From: Deltaproteobacteria bacterium
GTDB taxonomy: Bacteria; Desulfobacterota; Desulfovibrionia; Desulfovibrionales; Desulfovibrionaceae
DNA length: 47,007 nucleotides
Reading direction: 5' to 3'
Assembly: GCA_009929215.1 (NCBI GenBank)
Contig: SAAX01000014.1
Coordinates: forward strand, 1-47,007
Shown piece after piece: positions 16,979 through 26,716 of the stretch. Within the stretch, counting starts at the first letter, position 1, and each line of letters starts with the position of its first letter. The translations under genes were made by a program, and so were the position numbers. The notes beneath the pieces were generated by a model that did no database searches, had not been told where the DNA came from, and saw only the letters and a list, made by a program, of their open reading frames with translations.

Positions 16979-17423
16979 GCCTGTGTGCCGTCCTTTTAGC
17001 AGCCCGGCCTGTCAGTAAGGCGGGGCTGCTAAAAAAAGATGAATTTTGCCCGCGCTGCTCCCTATTGTGATTTTTAAAACAATCGGGGCTGTGCGGGCAT
17101 TTTTATCAGGTTATCAAGCAGGATATGATGCGTGGCTGTGCATGGGCTGCGCGGGGGGCAGGGCATACGGCCTTGCCGTGTTTTCTTCCTCATCTAAGGA
17201 AAAAGCTCTGTTTGACGAAGGCCTTGTCACAGGTTAAGTATTGATAAATACTAGGGCTGTTCACTTCATCACAAGCTGCTTTTGTTATGGCAGGGCTGTA
17301 AAGGGTTCATTTTTTACAATCCTTTGTTTGCCCGAAAACAGAATGTGGTGTAAAAGCAGTTCCTTGCCGGTCATTCCCCATGTTGGGCAACGTGTAAGGG
17401 AAGCGGCAGAAAGGAGTTTAGCC
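16979..17423. other. 445-bp intergenic region with hairpin
   Basis: No convincing gene is present. A perfect 12-bp inverted repeat (16994-17005 with 17023-17034) has T residues on the 5' side and A residues on the 3' side. It would therefore terminate minus-strand transcription better than plus-strand. A possible promoter, TTGTCA (17224) with AATACT 17 bp later, lies upstream of the large gene. A 63-codon open frame at 17046-17237 lacks a ribosome-binding site. Confidence 0.4.
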
Positions 17424-20420
17424 GTGTGCGCCAAGATGCAAGGCATTTATTTTGACAAGCAGGACAGAGACATACTGGCCCTGGTCAACCGTATTCTGGA
17501 ATCCGACGGTAAGCAGTCGGACACGTTTTTGTTTGACCCCAGCCTGCACCCCCACGGCATCAAGGAACTGGTGGCTACGCCCGTTTCGCGCATGGCCTAT
17601 GCGGTCATAAACCTGCTGCGCAACCTTCAGGCCGGGCGCACCCAGGCTCGCGACCGTCTGCTTGCCTTAAAAACCTTGTACGACGAAGTGCTCAACAGTG
17701 CGCATTCTGCCCTGCGGCGCAACACGGCACGCGCCCTCATGCAGATCATGAAAAGCATGGTGCGCGCCCACGGCAACCAGCTAGAACAGCTCAAACTGGC
17801 CCACGATTTCAGGCGCACCGTGCAGGGAACCCCCCGCGTGGTGCGGCGCATGCTTGCCCGCTACCATCTGCCCGAGATGCCCGAAAGCTGGAACCAGCTG
17901 GCCTTTGACGACCATGTGTACGATGCCAACACCAAGGGGCGCAAAAGCCCCACGCACCTGATCATGGATGCCTGGATCAAGGGCATGCGTTCGCTTACCG
18001 TGGCCTACGAATACTGGGTGCAGCCAGACGCCGCGCGCGAAATTTTGCGCGCCGCAGAAATTACGGGCATTGCCGTGCGTATTGGCCTGGAATATCATCT
18101 GCCGTTTTACGGGCGTTTTATCAGCCTTTTCTGGATTCCCCGTGGTTTCAGTTCCAACGAGGATTTTCTGGAGTTTTTGCACAGTCCCAAGATGGCCGAG
18201 CTTATGAAGCGTGGTCATGAGGTGCTGCGTTGGCGGCGCGAGCGCGTGCTGGAAAGTCTGGAATTGTGGAACGAGCACCAGCGCCCGCAGCTTGAAGCCC
18301 AGTGGGAAGTGCCCGTGCCGGAACTGACCGGCGAGGATTTTTTGCGTCATGTGGGCCGTGGGCAGGCCTCTGGCCTGCATCTTGCGGAAGCCCTGCACCA
18401 GCATGTGCTGCCATCGCTGCGTGAACGCGCTGCTCTGCTGCGCGAGCGTGGCGATGCCGAGGCCACAGCCGAGCTGGCCTTTCTGGAAAATATGGGTGCA
18501 GAATACATTGCCGATAACTGGCTCTCGCCCATCGAACACCCAGAAATGCCCGATCTCAACAACCCCTGTGCGCACGGCGACCTGCCGCCGCTCATGCAGC
18601 TTTCAGTGGGTGAGCTGACCCGCGAACTGACCGAGCTTAATCCCGGTTACCGGCTTGTGCTCACCACCAAGGGCCTGAGCGTCGAAGATGTGGCAGAATT
18701 GTTGTGGGACAGCCAGGGTAGCATTAGCCACCTGGAAATTTTCAACATGCGCGGCTGGATGGAAGGCAAGCATGCCTGCCTCAAGGCCATCAGCGAATTG
18801 CAGCAGGCGCTCAACGAAGGTCTGGGCCCGCGCGTAAAGCAGATGATTCGTCTTATGGTACGGCGCATGGGCAATCAGGACGAAACGCGGGCTGCCAAGT
18901 TCAGGCACATTTTGCACAACGTGCCAAAATTGTGGGAGCATTACCGCAACAAGCCCCTGGGGTCACGGCTTGGCACAAGTTCTGTGAGCCGTGATTCTTA
19001 CGGCATGGGTTTTGTGCTGCGCGAAACACTGCCCGCACGCAGCCGCAAATTTTATGCCCGCGACCAAAAGCAGCCAGAAATCCCCGTATGCTCGCCGGTT
19101 GAGGAATGCGTGCGCTACATCAAGCCCCGTAATCCTTCGCCTTGGCAGCGGGCCTTGAGCGTGCTGAACCACCTGCCGGGGTGCCGCCATCTGGGTATGG
19201 AACGCCACACCTTGTGGAAAACCGCCAGCGTGGACTTCAGGGTATGCGGCAAGGGCAATGTGCTCAATCTGGGTGGCCTGAGCCTCACGAGCGGCAACGG
19301 CCTGCTGCCCAAACAGCAGGAAAAGGAAAACGCTCCTCTGGGTTCTGCCTATCTCAACAGCACTATTTGCAACTGGCTTAAGGTGCTGCTGGGCTTTTGC
19401 CCCGCGTTTTTTTCCTTTATGTACACCCAAAACTGGTGGTTTCTGGCCTGGTTTGGTACGTTCATATGGTTTGGCATTACAGGCGTGCGCAACGTCGTGC
19501 AGATGGTCATGGCTGCCAAGGGGGCCACTCGCTCCACACTTATACACTGGCGCGATCAGGTAAACGTGAGCCGCCTTTGCGACTCGCTCATGTTCACGGG
19601 TTTTTCGGTCTTGCTGCTGGAAATGCTGGTGCGCGTGCTGCTGCTCGACAGAACTCTTGGCATCACGGCGGCCCAGACCCCCTGGGTGGTTTTTGGCGTG
19701 CTCAGTCTTGTAAACGGCATATATCTGTGCGCGCACAATGTGTTTCGCGGTTTTCCCAAAGAGGCGTCCATCGGTAACCTTTTCCGCAGCTTGCTGGCCA
19801 TTCCCGTTTCGTCTCTCTACAATATGATATTGTACCAGACCGCCTATCTTTTGGGCGTGGACAATCCCGCCATGTATCTTGTGCCCAGTGCTGCGGTTAT
19901 TTCCAAAATGGCATCGGACACAGTGGCGGCCATTATTGAAGGTTATGCCGACAGCCAGGTGAACCTGCGTATGCGCAGGTGGGATTATCGCAGCAAGCTG
20001 ACCAATGTTTTTGATTGCTATACGCGCCTTGAGCTTCTGTTTCCCGATGAAGATGCGCTGATCAAGCTGGCCAAGCCCGGAGGCTTGCAGGGCAGCGGCG
20101 GCGTGATGGGCAAGGAAATTGAGCGGGCCTTTATCATTAATGCCCTTGACCTCATGTATATCTGGTTTTACCAGCCGCGCGCGCAGGATGCCTTTCGTCA
20201 GATTGCCAGAGCCCTGCCCGAGGCCGACCGCAACGTGCTGGCGCGGGCTCAGCTTGTGCTTACGCGAGAGCGCGAGGTAAGTCAGATGCTGGTGGATGGC
20301 CTGCTGGGACGCAATTTTTCTCGTCCACTGGCCTTTTATCTGGACAAGCGTAAGGAATATCTGCGTCGGTTAAGCCGTATGTGCCGCCCTGGAAAAATGC
20401 GCGAACCCGGTACTTTCTAA
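17424..20420 (+). CDS. Large membrane protein of unknown function (998 residues)
   Basis: I do not recognise this protein. The N-terminal 640 residues are soluble and mostly helical. Residues about 178-242 read like a TIM-barrel hydrolase strand series (GMRSLTVAYEYWVQPDAAR, then GIAVRIGLEYHLPFYGRF and IPRG). That suggests a PHP-like or metal-hydrolase relic, but metal ligands are not evident. The C-terminal part has about six to seven spans between residues 645 and 840 (WLKVLLGFCPAFFSFMY, LMFTGFSVLLLEMLVRVLLL, TPWVVFGVLSLVNGIYL). A cytoplasmic helical tail of about 150 residues follows. GTG at 17424 has AAGGAG seven bases upstream, and the earlier in-frame ATG has none. It is monocistronic. 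Confidence 0.8.
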   Translation: MCAKMQGIYFDKQDRDILALVNRILESDGKQSDTFLFDPSLHPHGIKELVATPVSRMAYAVINLLRNLQAGRTQARDRLLALKTLYDEVLNSAHSALRRNTARALMQIMKSMVRAHGNQLEQLKLAHDFRRTVQGTPRVVRRMLARYHLPEMPESWNQLAFDDHVYDANTKGRKSPTHLIMDAWIKGMRSLTVAYEYWVQPDAAREILRAAEITGIAVRIGLEYHLPFYGRFISLFWIPRGFSSNEDFLEFLHSPKMAELMKRGHEVLRWRRERVLESLELWNEHQRPQLEAQWEVPVPELTGEDFLRHVGRGQASGLHLAEALHQHVLPSLRERAALLRERGDAEATAELAFLENMGAEYIADNWLSPIEHPEMPDLNNPCAHGDLPPLMQLSVGELTRELTELNPGYRLVLTTKGLSVEDVAELLWDSQGSISHLEIFNMRGWMEGKHACLKAISELQQALNEGLGPRVKQMIRLMVRRMGNQDETRAAKFRHILHNVPKLWEHYRNKPLGSRLGTSSVSRDSYGMGFVLRETLPARSRKFYARDQKQPEIPVCSPVEECVRYIKPRNPSPWQRALSVLNHLPGCRHLGMERHTLWKTASVDFRVCGKGNVLNLGGLSLTSGNGLLPKQQEKENAPLGSAYLNSTICNWLKVLLGFCPAFFSFMYTQNWWFLAWFGTFIWFGITGVRNVVQMVMAAKGATRSTLIHWRDQVNVSRLCDSLMFTGFSVLLLEMLVRVLLLDRTLGITAAQTPWVVFGVLSLVNGIYLCAHNVFRGFPKEASIGNLFRSLLAIPVSSLYNMILYQTAYLLGVDNPAMYLVPSAAVISKMASDTVAAIIEGYADSQVNLRMRRWDYRSKLTNVFDCYTRLELLFPDEDALIKLAKPGGLQGSGGVMGKEIERAFIINALDLMYIWFYQPRAQDAFRQIARALPEADRNVLARAQLVLTREREVSQMLVDGLLGRNFSRPLAFYLDKRKEYLRRLSRMCRPGKMREPGTF

Positions 20421-20550: not shown

Positions 20551-20665
20551 GCGGCGCAAGCCGCCGCTGACGGGCCTTGGCCCGCCATACAGGCGAAGTA
20601 TGGGAACGACGCGGTTCCCTTCTTCAGGCCACCGGCAAAAGGCAACTTTTGTCGGTGGCTTTTTT
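20551..20665 (+). ncRNA. Candidate structured RNA or transcribed intergenic repeat
   Basis: Five hairpins follow each other: 20551-20564 (GCGGC/GCCGC, GCAA loop), 20572-20583 (GGGCC/GGCCC), 20586-20602 (CATAC/GTATG), 20602-20619 (GGGAAC/GTTCCC) and the terminator at 20628-20665. No known family is recognised. It may be the 3' region of the large gene's mRNA, a small RNA, or a dispersed repeat. Confidence 0.35.
20628..20665 (+). terminator. Strong rho-independent terminator
   Basis: A 14-bp stem (20628-20641 with 20646-20659, one G-U pair) with a GCAA loop is followed by six T residues and then CGTTTTT. It isolates the alcohol dehydrogenase gene from upstream transcription. Confidence 0.9.
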
Positions 20666-22309: not shown

Positions 22310-22912
22310 TCAGGGGCGTATGATCTTGCTAGCCAGATCAAGGCTGGTGACAATATCCAGCATGTTTGAGGTATCACCCACGGCCTTGGCCTCCAGCAGG
22401 CCAAAATGCGCAAGGCATGTACCGCACACAAGCACCGATACACCTTCCGCCGCCATTTTTTTCAGCGCATCAAGGCCCGGTCCGGGGCACGATGCCAGCT
22501 TTACACCGCCATTGATCAGCACAATGCGCCACAGGCGGGGCCCAAGCTCTGGCAGGGTGGCCAAAAAATTGCCCATAAGCTTGCCGCCCAGATCATCATC
22601 GCCACGGCCGATGGTTTCTGTGGTTATGAGCACCAGAGTGCGGCTGTTGCCTTCTGCGGCGGGGGCAACTTCGGTGGCCTGCTGCGAGGCAGGGGTTGCA
22701 GCACCCGCAGAGGCACTTATGCGCCAGCAGTCCGGGCCTTCCTGATGTGCGGCAACGCTGAAGCCGCGCCCTTCAAAAAAGCGCCGCAGATTTTCACGCG
22801 CGGGCTCGTTGTCCACCAGCACTTCCAGAGCCTGTGCTCCGCCCGCAACGGCATCACGGCTGCGCATTACCGGTTGGGGGCAGGCAAGCCCCCGGCAATC
22901 CAATTGTTCCAT
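22310..22912 (-). CDS. yedF: YedF-like sulfurtransferase-fold protein
   Basis: A 200-residue cytoplasmic protein. The N-terminal 75 residues are a TusA/SirA domain with the motif CRGLACPQPV, whose cysteine is the sulfur carrier in TusA. The C-terminal 115 residues are a DsrE-like domain (LINGGVKLASCPGPGLDALKKMAA, containing two motif parts, and GVSVLVCGTCLAHFGL). This architecture is called YedF and is linked to selenium metabolism in genomes with selenocysteine. I chose the ATG at 22912 because GGGAG lies at good spacing; the ATG two codons earlier is too close to it. The gene stands alone, back to back with the chemoreceptor gene. Confidence 0.85.
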   Translation of the reverse strand: MEQLDCRGLACPQPVMRSRDAVAGGAQALEVLVDNEPARENLRRFFEGRGFSVAAHQEGPDCWRISASAGAATPASQQATEVAPAAEGNSRTLVLITTETIGRGDDDLGGKLMGNFLATLPELGPRLWRIVLINGGVKLASCPGPGLDALKKMAAEGVSVLVCGTCLAHFGLLEAKAVGDTSNMLDIVTSLDLASKIIRP

Positions 22913-22956
22913 GTGCATTCTCCCGTATATATTTTGAGATTTACAACTAATAAGGC

Positions 22957-22983
22957 TAAGGGTAGTTAGAAAAAAGCCGATAA
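22957..22983 (+). promoter_or_regulatory. Sigma-28 (FliA) promoter of the haemerythrin chemoreceptor
   Basis: TAAG (22957-22960), 15 bp, then GCCGATAA (22976-22983) matches the flagellar sigma-28 consensus TAAA-N15-GCCGATAA at eleven of twelve bases, with exact spacing. It lies 25 bp before the start codon. Confidence 0.8.
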
Positions 22984-23008
22984 GCAAGTTAAACTAAGGT
23001 AGGCATAT

Positions 23009-24694
23009 ATGGGCATTGCGCTTCAGGTTGTTATAATAGTCGCTCTGGCGGGTTTGGCCGTAATGGGTGGCATTCAGGGCATGGGCTGGCTGATTGCTGG
23101 CATTGTTTTTGTTTGTGCGGCCGTGGATATGTGGCTGTGGGTGAGCGGACGCAACAGGGCGGCCCGGTTGGCGCAGTGCCTTGATGCCGCGCCGCTCCCC
23201 GGTTCTGGTTCTTCCTCCGGTTCGGGCGAGGGCGATGTGGAGCTGCGCGCCGTGCAGTGCATAGATACCCTGCGCGATACGCTCAAAACCAAGGTTGACC
23301 CGCAGGTTGTGGATATTTTGCGTGCCCAGAACAACGAGCTTGACCAAAAGCTCAAGGAATCTGAAGGCCTGATTGAAACCTTGCGCTCGCGGCGTGAAAA
23401 GGGCGTTATGGCCCTGAACAAAGCCCACGATGTGTGCAAGAGGCTCTCTGGTGATATGCGCAAGCTGGCAAGCCTGATCAAGGACGTGAACGGCAGCGTG
23501 GCTGTGCAACGCGACAGGCTGGAGCACACCAGTGCCGCCATGGAGCAGGTGGCCGATACGGCCAGCCTGGCTTCAATGCGCGTGCGTGATCTTTCTGAAA
23601 GCGCCCAGAGCTCCAGCGCCAGTGCGGCCACGGGTGAGCAGGAAGTTGAAGGGGCCGTGGGCTCCATTGACAGCGTGCGCGATACCATCGCGCAGCTCAA
23701 GGAAGCGATGGCTGGTCTGGGCGAAAAGGCCAGCAATATCGGTCAGGTCATGAGTGTCATCAATGAGGTGGCCGACCAGACCAACCTGCTGGCCCTTAAC
23801 GCCGCCATCGAGGCTGCCCGCGCCGGTGAAGCCGGACGCGGCTTTGCCGTGGTGGCCGACGAGGTGCGCAAACTGGCCGAAAAGACCATGGGTGCCACCA
23901 AGGAAGTGGAAGAAGCCGTTAAGGCCATTCAGGAAGAAACACGGCGCAACGTGCTGACTGTGGACAAGGCCGCCCAGTTGAGTGTTGACGCGGCAGACAA
24001 GGCAACCAATGCCGGGTCTGTGATGCGTTCCATTTTGCAGAGTATGGCCGACACGGCGGGCCACCTTGGCAGTATTGCCGCCGGGGCGGCAGAGCAGTCC
24101 GAGCGCAGCGCGGGAACCAACGGCGCGCTTGATGAAATTCGCGGCGCGGCAGAAAAAACTTCCAAAAACATGGAAGTTTTCACCGCATCTCTGCTGGCCT
24201 TCCAGAGCGGCATGGAAGAGCTGGACATGATAGTCAACGCCCTTGTGGCTGGCGACTATGACCAGGCAAACTCAAACAAGTTTGTGGAATGGACTCCCAA
24301 GCTTGCCCTGCATGTGCCGCTGGTGGACAGGGAGCACAGGCTGCTGATTGACTACATCAATGAGCTGCATCAGGCCATGACGCACAACAAGCCCATTTCT
24401 GAAATGATTGGCGTGCTCAAAAAGCTGCGTGATTACACGGCCACCCACTTCGGCGACGAAGAAAAGCTGTTCAACGTGCCTGCCTACAAGGCCGCCGCAG
24501 AACACATGCAGATTCACAAAAAGTTTGTTGCCAAGCTGGATGAAGTGGAAGAGCAGCTGCGCATGGGAACTGCCACGGTGAGCATGGAGTTGCTGACCTT
24601 CCTCAAGGATTGGCTGGTGCAGCATATCATGGGCACAGACCCCACCTATGTGCCCTTCCTGCGTCCTGAAGACAAGGAACCCGGCTCCCGCTAG
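23009..24694 (+). CDS. Methyl-accepting chemotaxis protein with bacteriohaemerythrin domain
   Basis: A 561-residue chemoreceptor. Two adjacent N-terminal spans (residues about 4-45) anchor it with almost no periplasmic domain, so sensing is cytoplasmic. The conserved signalling tip ([20 protein letters not shown] and [17 protein letters not shown]) is intact. The C-terminal haemerythrin domain (about 425-555) keeps all seven expected di-iron ligands: H443, H480, E484, H499, H503, H539 and D544, with correct spacing. It should bind oxygen or sense redox state for aerotaxis, like DcrH. A sigma-28 promoter places it in the motility regulon. Confidence 0.93.
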
Positions 24695-24952: not shown

Positions 24953-26716
24953 CTACAGCGGGGCAGACCCGTTGCGCAGTTTGCGCATGCCATCCTCGCC
25001 CACATAGCGGCGCAGCTGCTTGTCGGGCGCGTTGAGCAGATCCACCACCAGCAGGGCGTCGAGCGTGCCAAAGGTGCGGTCTTCGTGAAAGGCCGCAATG
25101 CGCCCGCCCAGTTGCAGATAGTGTTTGAAAAGTATGGGCAGGGTGCGCCCGCCTTCCATCTGCCGCACAAGGTTGTTGACGGCCTTGTAGTCGAGGTGCT
25201 GGGCAAAGGGCAGATCCTCGCGCAATTTGCGGGGCTGTTTGCCGCGCACAAGGGTGGCCAGGGGGGCGTCCCAGTGGCGCAGCCGCAAGTGCCGCCACAG
25301 CAGGTCTACAGATTGCGGGCGGTAGTTCAGGCCAATGCTGGCAGGGCCAAACAGGGTGCGCACTCTGTTGCGCAGGGCCAGCTGGCCAATGCCCTTCCAC
25401 AGCAGAAGCAGGGGGGTGTAGTCGCGCTGATATTCGGGGCATACAAAGGCGCGTCCCAGTTCAAGTGCGTTGCCGCATTTCTGGAAAAATTCCGGTTCGT
25501 AGGTAAAGAGGGATGCCGTGTAGAGGTGTTCTTTGGAGCAACGGCGGGTGTCATCGGGCCGTTCCACGCGTACCACGCGGGCGCGGTACGAACCGGCAAT
25601 GCTCTTGCCTTCTTCGTCCAGCAGCAGAAGGTGCGAATACTGCGGGTCATAGCAATCCGTATCGCGCGACTGGCCAGAGCCTTCACCCAATGCGCGAAAC
25701 GCCTCTTCGCGCCTTCTGGTCAGCTCGTCCAGCAGCAGGGGCGACTCGTTGCCTTCCACAAGGTACACAGCGTACCGGCCTTCGCGGGCCAGCAGCCTGT
25801 CTTCCGGCAGGGCTGCCAGACTGACCATGATATCCATTTTTTCCGCTGCCGGGGCCAGGGGTGCGCACTGCCCGGCGCGCCGTTCTGTATGCACTGCCGC
25901 GCCAAGGGCAGAGCGGCACAGACCAAGGCAGTGGGTGCGCTGCTCGTGGTTCAGCTCGGTCAGCGTGTCTGCGGGTATGGCTTCGCCTACGATCATGCGG
26001 GCCTTGCTGCCCCTTTGTTTGAACAATGTGTGGGGCAAGAGCGCCTCTCCCAGATTTTCGCGCAGGGTGGTGGCGGCGATAAACAGCGGGTTGTAGCGCA
26101 CCGACATGTGCAGGGGCACAAAGTTCAGGTTGGGAATCTCTGCATTGCGGCCCCCAAGCCTGCTGAGCAGGCGCGACCAGGGTTGTTCTGCAATGCCGCG
26201 TCCAAACTGCCAGCGGGCAACGCGTCCGGCAGGAAAAATACCCAGTGCTCCGCCCGCGCGCAGGTGGTTCATGGCGCTGCGCAGCACTGCCGCATTGGCG
26301 CTTGCGCCGCCATAAAGGTCGAGGGGCAGCAGCATGGGTGCCAGCTGGGCCAGCTGCGGAATGCGCAGTAGGGCGGCGCTGGCAAGAATTTTGAGGTCGG
26401 GCCGCGCCCTGCCGCACAGAGCGGCCATCATCAGGCCCTCAAGCGCGCCAGAGGGATGATTGGCATACAGAATAACCGGCCCCTCGGCGGGGATGCGCCC
26501 AAGGTCACCGCGCAAACAGTCGGGGGTTACGTCCAGCGCTGTGAGGAAGGACGTGGCAAAGGTTTGGGGATCGCCGCACTGGGGAAGCGCGAAGGCCATT
26601 TTTTCCAGCCGGGCTAGCCCCGAAATATGGCGGGCCATGGCGCGGGCCAGCCGCCCAACACTTTTGACCAGTGGGCGGCCAGGCGCAAGGGATAACGTAT
26701 CTGCATTGCCGGGCAT
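24953..26716 (-). CDS. OlsF-like bifunctional acyltransferase (PlsC domain + GNAT-type N-acyltransferase)
   Basis: A 587-residue fusion. The N-terminal half is a PlsC-type lysolipid O-acyltransferase. It has NHPSGALEG, with H87 followed by E93 where D is usual, and FPAGRV at 161-166. The C-terminal half (from about residue 315) is an OlsB-like GNAT domain with YSHLLLLDEEGKSIAGSYR and ALELGRAFVCPEYQRDYTPL (the latter about 20 residues before the acyl-CoA/ACP loop). The order matches OlsF, which N-acylates ornithine and then O-acylates the product to make ornithine lipids. I infer a membrane aminolipid synthase; the amino acid used is not certain. AGGAG precedes the ATG. The DksA-like gene lies 103 bp upstream. 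Confidence 0.8.
   Translation of the reverse strand: MPGNADTLSLAPGRPLVKSVGRLARAMARHISGLARLEKMAFALPQCGDPQTFATSFLTALDVTPDCLRGDLGRIPAEGPVILYANHPSGALEGLMMAALCGRARPDLKILASAALLRIPQLAQLAPMLLPLDLYGGASANAAVLRSAMNHLRAGGALGIFPAGRVARWQFGRGIAEQPWSRLLSRLGGRNAEIPNLNFVPLHMSVRYNPLFIAATTLRENLGEALLPHTLFKQRGSKARMIVGEAIPADTLTELNHEQRTHCLGLCRSALGAAVHTERRAGQCAPLAPAAEKMDIMVSLAALPEDRLLAREGRYAVYLVEGNESPLLLDELTRRREEAFRALGEGSGQSRDTDCYDPQYSHLLLLDEEGKSIAGSYRARVVRVERPDDTRRCSKEHLYTASLFTYEPEFFQKCGNALELGRAFVCPEYQRDYTPLLLLWKGIGQLALRNRVRTLFGPASIGLNYRPQSVDLLWRHLRLRHWDAPLATLVRGKQPRKLREDLPFAQHLDYKAVNNLVRQMEGGRTLPILFKHYLQLGGRIAAFHEDRTFGTLDALLVVDLLNAPDKQLRRYVGEDGMRKLRNGSAPL

Follow-up and report, generated by a model that had tools for sequence, protein, structure and literature searches.

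RNase AM (YciV, Rnm; b1266 in Escherichia coli) belongs to the closest described systems for the protein considered here. The E. coli enzyme carries three Mn ions, held at an alpha site by His13, Glu72 and Asp255, at a beta site by Glu72, His83 and His198, and at a gamma site by Asp20, His45 and His257, and the changes D20A, E72A and D255/H257A disrupted its activity (PMC9410882). The PHP domain of E. coli DNA polymerase III alpha has lost its metal ligands and retains a structural role (PMC3666897). The gene under study lies in a 47,007-nucleotide stretch of DNA (contig SAAX01000014.1 of assembly GCA_009929215.1, positions 1 to 47,007), referred to below as the window, from a deltaproteobacterium of the Desulfovibrionaceae, class Desulfovibrionia. 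Its 998-residue product is not RNase AM but an undescribed membrane protein that carries a PHP fold resembling that of RNase AM. As judged from the predicted structure and the profile alignment, residues 158–605 form this PHP domain, which is of the RNase AM/cv1693 type.

The fold assignment was made with an AlphaFold2 model calculated on an alignment of 37 family members (A1), which reached a predicted local distance difference test (pLDDT) score of 86.6 and a predicted template modelling score of 0.84. Comparison with the PDB using Foldseek returned the BAD_1165 phosphoesterase (3o0f, E 1.9e-6), Vibrio cholerae RNase AM (9etk, 5.0e-6) and cv1693 (2yb1, 2.4e-4), while VIA gave Z scores of 20.7 for 3e0f (2.6 Å over 255 residues), 19.2 for 2yb1 and 19.1 for 9etk (263 residues), followed by the PHP domains of replicative polymerases (Z 11–13), histidinol phosphatase (7.1) and a first non-PHP structure at about 6. 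The best structural matches cover residues 158–605, where the model forms the distorted beta/alpha barrel of the PHP superfamily, with PHP chains ranking at the top. A segment at residues 178–242 that the earlier note had likened to a TIM-barrel hydrolase falls inside this barrel and is accounted for by it. Further support came from hhalign, in which residues 158–250 scored 45.1 against an RNase AM profile (E 3.2e-8 as one comparison), compared with at most 17.7 for 60 column-shuffled templates and 9.2 for the reversed template. The alignment spans 73–74 columns and sets D162-x-H164-x-166 on the DxHxH motif and E223 on E64 of the RNase AM encoded in the same genome (E72 in E. coli). By itself, the second half of the domain could not be aligned significantly with this profile, and motifs III and IV were therefore placed by strand order and motif reading.

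Searches of family libraries did not name the protein. No Pfam family was matched up to E 10 and no NCBIfam or PADLOC model matched; PF02811 (PHP) was absent among the families matched by the 37 members of A1 up to E 1, and the gene is not among the five PF02811 matches in its own genome. A sequence search of the PDB produced two insignificant matches only, and in BFVD nothing reached E 0.001, the top rows being weak PHP or DNA polymerase entries. The weak NCBIfam matches of A1 members that agree with one another are all of PHP type, namely NF041577 (3',5'-nucleoside bisphosphate phosphatase; 6/37 members, best E 0.0021), the CehA/McbA metallohydrolase model (3/37, best E 0.0045) and the RNase RNM model (4/37, best E 0.011); three further models were matched by one member each. 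The description of the family as unrecognised thus held, and going by searches of open-access literature only, the family is considered undescribed. A Gcr-type 'site-specific recombinase' membrane family was considered as a candidate and was supported by no library match.

All nine metal ligands are invariant in 31/31 RNase AM sequences (the 30 best loci plus E. coli), and the genome containing the window also encodes an RNase AM homolog with the full set. The ninth, His15, sits in the same HxH motif as His13 and is presumably an alpha-site ligand. Only two of the nine, H164 and E223, are kept in the window protein, which does not carry the His/Asp/Glu set of a three-metal PHP phosphoesterase. 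The remaining positions are occupied by Y166, K171, W198, S234, T415, S519 (in place of the metal-binding Asp) and V521 (in place of His), leaving no equivalents of RNase AM H15, D20, H45, H83, H198, D255 and H257, with positions 415, 519 and 521 placed by motif and strand order only. Among 139 family sequences, H164 is conserved at 98%, K171 at 83% and E223 at 94%, with D162, D167 and K174 at 100%. Position 166 is His in 69 and Tyr in 71 of 140 sequences, and position 519 is Asp in 62; H166 and D519 occur together in these 62, and D519 is found in no Y166 sequence. One change on the tree suffices for the switch to Y166, which is therefore read as one event and not many, and two sequences branching beside the Y166 clade combine H166 with A519.

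Outside the class, H164, H166, E223 and D519 are all present in 73 of the 80 main-branch sequences, in which position 171 is always Lys or Ser, position 415 always Leu and position 521 never His, with His at position 198 in 13 and at position 234 in four; E438 (80/80) and H319 (78/80) are nearly constant. The distant subfamily 2, represented by seven full-length sequences, retains H164, H166, E223 and His 234 (the H83 position), and has Glu at 171 (the Asp20 position of RNase AM) and Ala at 519, each in 7/7. On the alignments, the main branch has thus kept an alpha-site set and lost those ligands that belong to the beta or gamma site only, subfamily 2 has retained another selection, and most of what remained has gone in the clade to which the window protein belongs. 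As this clade has lost two of the four alpha ligands, a standard three-metal phosphoesterase is unlikely.

C-terminal to the PHP domain, six long helices are predicted (residues 646–668, 672–698, 715–744, 753–775, 779–809 and 823–872), and the same six were obtained when the C-terminal part was modelled alone (alignment A3, 59 sequences, pLDDT 85.2), in keeping with the roughly six spans and helical tail that had been described from the sequence. Residues 600–998 matched no solved fold in the PDB, the best Foldseek E being 1.1 and the best VIA Z 5.7. The XPR1 phosphate channel recurred in weak rows for the C-terminal model (Z at most 5.0), which were treated as noise. At the 97% level or above, 38/205 positions of the membrane domain (646–850) are conserved, compared with 25/141 in the N-terminal helical domain (residues 10–150), 19/93 in the first part of the PHP domain (158–250) and 4/145 in its poorly conserved helical insertion (251–395). 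Among the conserved membrane positions, R689, R788, N764, N772 and E839 are found in 80/80 main-branch and 7/7 subfamily-2 sequences, K828 in 79/80 and 7/7, and D832 in 79/80 and 6/7. The mean net charge of the loops alternates from +1.0 before helix 1 through -0.5, +2.6, -1.1, +1.6 and -1.0 to +2.3 after helix 6 (n=140), so that by the positive-inside rule both soluble parts, the N-terminal part with the PHP domain and the C-terminal part, would face the cytoplasm.

A single functional theme was observed among neighbouring genes, outside the class only: glycerol-3-phosphate and glycerophosphodiester metabolism. Outside the class, 10 of the 89 loci have a glycerol-3-phosphate metabolism gene no more than 1 kb from the family gene, compared with 0 of 350 control genes (at least 200 amino acids long, drawn from 40 stretches in 17 of these genomes, none from the named Syntrophales contigs). 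Of the 89 loci, 69 have 1.5 kb on both sides, and two (L219 and L224) hold fragments, which entered neither the tree nor the counts of residues; UgpC-like ATPases, which lie within 1 kb of 28/350 controls, were excluded from the count as too general. A GDPD gene adjoins the family gene (less than 50 bp away or overlapping) in L118, L119, L127, L160 and L223 and lies 618 bp off in L272, convergent ugp genes are found in L130, L163 and L166, glpK in L134, and glpA additionally in L119. The GDPD of L160 matched PF03009 (E 7.5e-54); Pfam names were used for L160, L032, L052 and L056, and other genes were named by phmmer comparison with E. coli or with the L160/L119 proteins. Two genomes (G355 and G552) have one GDPD match each, which is the neighbour of the family gene. 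On a 95-row tree the neighbour label requires six changes, all forced by well-supported branches; the raw-count Fisher value of 7.7e-8 overstates the case, as the lineages are not independent, and the values calculated with a denominator of 60 take a guess for how many lineages there are. For the family, these neighbours seen in distant relatives give a hint of a function in the metabolism of glycerol phosphate or lipids.

The explanation tentatively preferred, as plausible though short of probable, is that the window protein combines a metal-stripped PHP domain, acting as a sensor or scaffold for a phosphorylated ligand, with an undescribed membrane device that it serves. In such a protein the PHP domain would no longer cut a phosphoester by the three-metal route. 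It would instead bind or sense a ligand or act as a scaffold, the probable ligand being a small phosphorylated molecule or the head group of a lipid, and would thereby control or supply the membrane domain. There, the invariant Arg, Lys, Asp, Glu and Asn residues would carry out the conserved function, for which the likeliest candidate is the transport or chemical conversion, at the inner leaflet, of a substrate that is of glycerol-phosphate type or derived from phospholipid. From residue identities, the model and the distant neighbours we infer a non-catalytic PHP domain in the window protein and a glycerol-phosphate- or lipid-like substrate class. The wider proposal, that this is a new membrane family of transporters or enzymes handling glycerophospholipids or glycerol phosphate in the Desulfobacterota, whose PHP domain passed from three metals to a single one and lost even that in Desulfovibrio, is considered rather unlikely.

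Several observations weigh against the preferred explanation. The structure is a prediction, and the glycerol-3-phosphate idea was noticed in the data and then tested on the same loci, of which 79/89 outside the class have no such neighbour. In the class itself, 91 loci were examined and none has a glp, GDPD or ugpABE gene inside the 1-kb limit (a UgpC-type ATPase lies 225 bp off in L035 and a GDPD 6.4 kb off in L043), and the substrate hint may therefore not carry over to the window protein. The ugp genes are convergent and do not form one operon with the family gene. A GDPD match is present in 24/28 genomes with the family and 36/48 without it, which gives no clear link (tallied by hand; two of the 28 family matches, in G544 and G546, cover a short stretch, and G515 has a GDPD match that does not reach the Pfam cut-off). 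Finally, His 234 and Glu 171 in subfamily 2 (7/7 each) and His 198 in 13/80 main-branch sequences suggest that metal binding and cleavage may persist elsewhere in the family.

One alternative is a phospholipid-turnover membrane enzyme, in which a mononuclear PHP site would be catalytic in most members, beside GDPD, and the window copy would be a lineage-specific inactive version beside a second copy with an intact site on contig 110 of the same genome. This agrees with the four alpha-site ligands kept in most main-branch members outside the class and in the contig 110 copy, and with the five loci in which GDPD adjoins. It is nevertheless judged improbable, as only 20/45 same-genus genomes have more than one match, so that the window-type copy is often alone, and subfamily 2 has GDPD neighbours and yet Ala 519 throughout. 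A membrane-tethered ribonuclease or nucleotide phosphatase of RNase AM type, using the remaining residues or substitutes (D162, D167, K174), would fit the nearest solved structures, which include RNase AM and cv1693, the complete conservation of these three residues with H164 at 98%, and the near-constant E438 and H319. However, of the nine ligands invariant in RNase AM the window protein has H164 and E223 alone; it lacks the equivalents of D20, D255 and H257, whose change disrupted the activity of E. coli RNase AM (PMC9410882), and its genome already encodes an RNase AM homolog with nine ligands. This explanation is accordingly regarded as very unlikely.

A transporter or channel with a purely structural cytoplasmic PHP domain, as in E. 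coli DNA polymerase III alpha, would account for the density of conserved positions in the membrane domain and for charged residues that are invariant in both subfamilies, and has a precedent in the ligand-less PHP domain with a structural role described in PMC3666897. It is held to be doubtful, since the start of the PHP domain is as conserved as the membrane domain, seemingly beyond what a passive scaffold needs; no solved transporter fold matched residues 600–998, an absence that is no proof. The ligand-sensing or scaffolding PHP domain with a conserved membrane device stays the preferred explanation.

The family is widespread in the class, with a match in 172/199 sampled genomes, and 44 of the 45 same-genus genomes listed were matched, G106 by a trace only (E 3.9e-4). 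In the phylum sample 32/297 genomes were matched, 11 of the 32 belonging to the same taxonomic family, and in two orders the counts were 5/24 and 75/194, a few matches in the latter being fragments. With two peptide patterns, 503 relatives were confirmed on contigs of GTDB species, and the best 80 of the 503, on which their taxonomy rests, are from Desulfovibrionaceae, Syntrophales/Syntrophaceae, Desulfobacterales or uncultured Deltaproteobacteria. A plasmid search gave no match. The contig 110 copy (L052:7648-10716; L002 among the sequences) is 44% identical to the window protein, has H164, H166, E223 and D519, and forms a branch of its own on the tree together with two copies found in related genomes. 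It lies about 0.4 kb upstream of groES-groEL (L052:11098-13077, Pfam), and in a related genome (L054) the gene clusters and their order are the same as around it. Two same-genus genomes of about 1.4 Mb have no gene (G071) or a trace only (G106), which suggests loss in reduced genomes. All eight listed genomes of another genus of the same family (g5; 3.4–4.1 Mb) are without the gene, offering a possible basis for a phenotype comparison.

Features of the gene and its product are collected in Table 1.

Table 1. Positions in the window of the gene, its flanking signals and the parts of its product.
Feature	Positions	Strand	Basis
Ribosome-binding-site-like AAGGAG, 7 bases ahead of GTG	17411..17416	+	sequence reading
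Whole coding sequence, 998 amino acids plus stop, GTG start	17424..20420	+	open frame, homologs, ortholog comparison
N-terminal helical domain, residues 1-157	17424..17894	+	predicted structure, conservation
PHP domain, RNase AM/cv1693-type, residues 158-605	17895..19238	+	predicted structure, fold match, profile alignment
Motif I, D162-D-H164-V-Y166-D167, corresponding to PHP DxHxH, with Y166 for the second His	17907..17924	+	
E223, RNase AM E72 equivalent, retained	18090..18092	+	profile alignment
Helical insertion of PHP domain, residues 251-395	18174..18608	+	predicted structure
Motif IV remnant, residues 517-529 (GTSSV...GMG)	18972..19010	+	motif and strand order
Six-helix membrane domain, residues 646-850	19359..19973	+	predicted structure, loop charge, conservation
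Cytoplasmic extension of sixth helix and C-terminal helical domain, residues 851-998	19974..20417	+	predicted structure
Strong terminator-like hairpin, 16 pairs then T-rich tail, 3' of gene	20626..20661	+	

The frame stays open 5' of the GTG, from 17241. The GTG at 17424 is favoured as the start because of the AAGGAG upstream of it and because a GTG following an AGGAG-like element is also present in the four orthologs compared. GC content at codon positions 1, 2 and 3 is 0.62, 0.41 and 0.69. Against a 94%-identical ortholog (L003), the proportions of synonymous (pS) and nonsynonymous (pN) differences are 0.425 and 0.030, a pN/pS of about 0.07, and the corresponding rate ratio, dN/dS, is about 0.05 both for the whole gene and for the PHP part alone. 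The gene thus encodes a real protein under strong purifying constraint, and the expectation of a functional coding gene is borne out by the 998-codon frame, the pN/pS value and the broad conservation. A promoter region of its own, also claimed for the gene, was not upheld: the single upstream sigma-70-like match is 9/12, and the region has four such sites compared with a shuffle mean of 2.7.

Upstream of the gene lie genes for a DUF3298 protein, a Na/Ca exchanger, a Yip1/zinc-ribbon protein and an unnamed lipoprotein-like product (labelled lipoprotein by eye), and downstream are Fe-ADH, TusA-type, MCP-hemerythrin and acyltransferase genes. A search for a conserved operon at the family level found none, nor any partner common to the family. 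A same-strand gene lies within 50 bp upstream in 25/117 loci and downstream in 28/116, the latter including the window by way of an unproven open reading frame of 115 amino acids that overlaps the gene end by about 40 bases. Recurrent neighbours seen in class loci only are a downstream Fe-ADH (14 loci), upstream lipoprotein (8) and Yip1 (9) genes, and a HAD-like gene (12 loci, named by eye). The eight lipoprotein loci, the window included, are all from close Desulfovibrio relatives, and a role in envelope biology read from this neighbour is not sustained. The earlier note therefore stands for the unnamed family, the hydrolase-like barrel, the spans and the tail, and not for the envelope link. 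Further downstream, a 587-amino-acid protein (24953-26716, minus strand) with acyltransferase and GNAT (Acetyltransf_5) domains is reminiscent of the bifunctional ornithine-lipid synthase OlsF. The product of 23009-24694 (plus strand) has an MCP chemotaxis-type signalling domain followed by a hemerythrin domain and is perhaps an oxygen or redox sensor, and that of 22310-22987 (minus strand) combines a TusA domain with a weak C-terminal DsrE-like match that falls below the cut-off.

A protein common in its class and unnamed by Pfam and NCBIfam is now placed on the PHP fold with residue-level predictions, together with a membrane domain that is undescribed, has invariant charged residues and may serve sulfate reducers and their relatives in the metabolism of glycerol phosphate or lipids. 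If the wider proposal is true, a new six-helix membrane domain acquired a PHP enzyme that turned stepwise into a regulatory or structural part while the membrane device was conserved. The graded natural loss of a metal site within one family, from four ligands to two, bears on when a PHP domain stops being an enzyme.

Set beside the described systems, the window family shares with RNase AM (E. coli; V. cholerae 9etk, 7ug9) a PHP barrel with a helical insertion, the DxHxH start and the E72 equivalent, whereas RNase AM has no such membrane part (the E. coli protein is 293 amino acids long) and lacks the additional N-terminal helical domain. Together with RNase AM, cv1693 (2yb1) and BAD_1165 (3o0f/3e0f) are the best fold matches of the PHP domain; their chains are shorter than 300 residues, have no membrane part and carry metal ligands unlike those of the window protein. 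We take cv1693 to be a 3',5'-nucleoside bisphosphate phosphatase, while the PDB title of 2yb1 reads amidohydrolase. GDPD/UgpQ and the Ugp glycerol-3-phosphate uptake system are recurrent neighbours outside the class, related by context and not by homology. The PHP domain of E. coli DNA polymerase III alpha (2hnh, VIA Z 13.1) is part of a replicase and not of a membrane protein, and would resemble that of the window protein in the way it works, with no descent implied, in that the fold is kept, the ligands are lost and the domain remains constrained.

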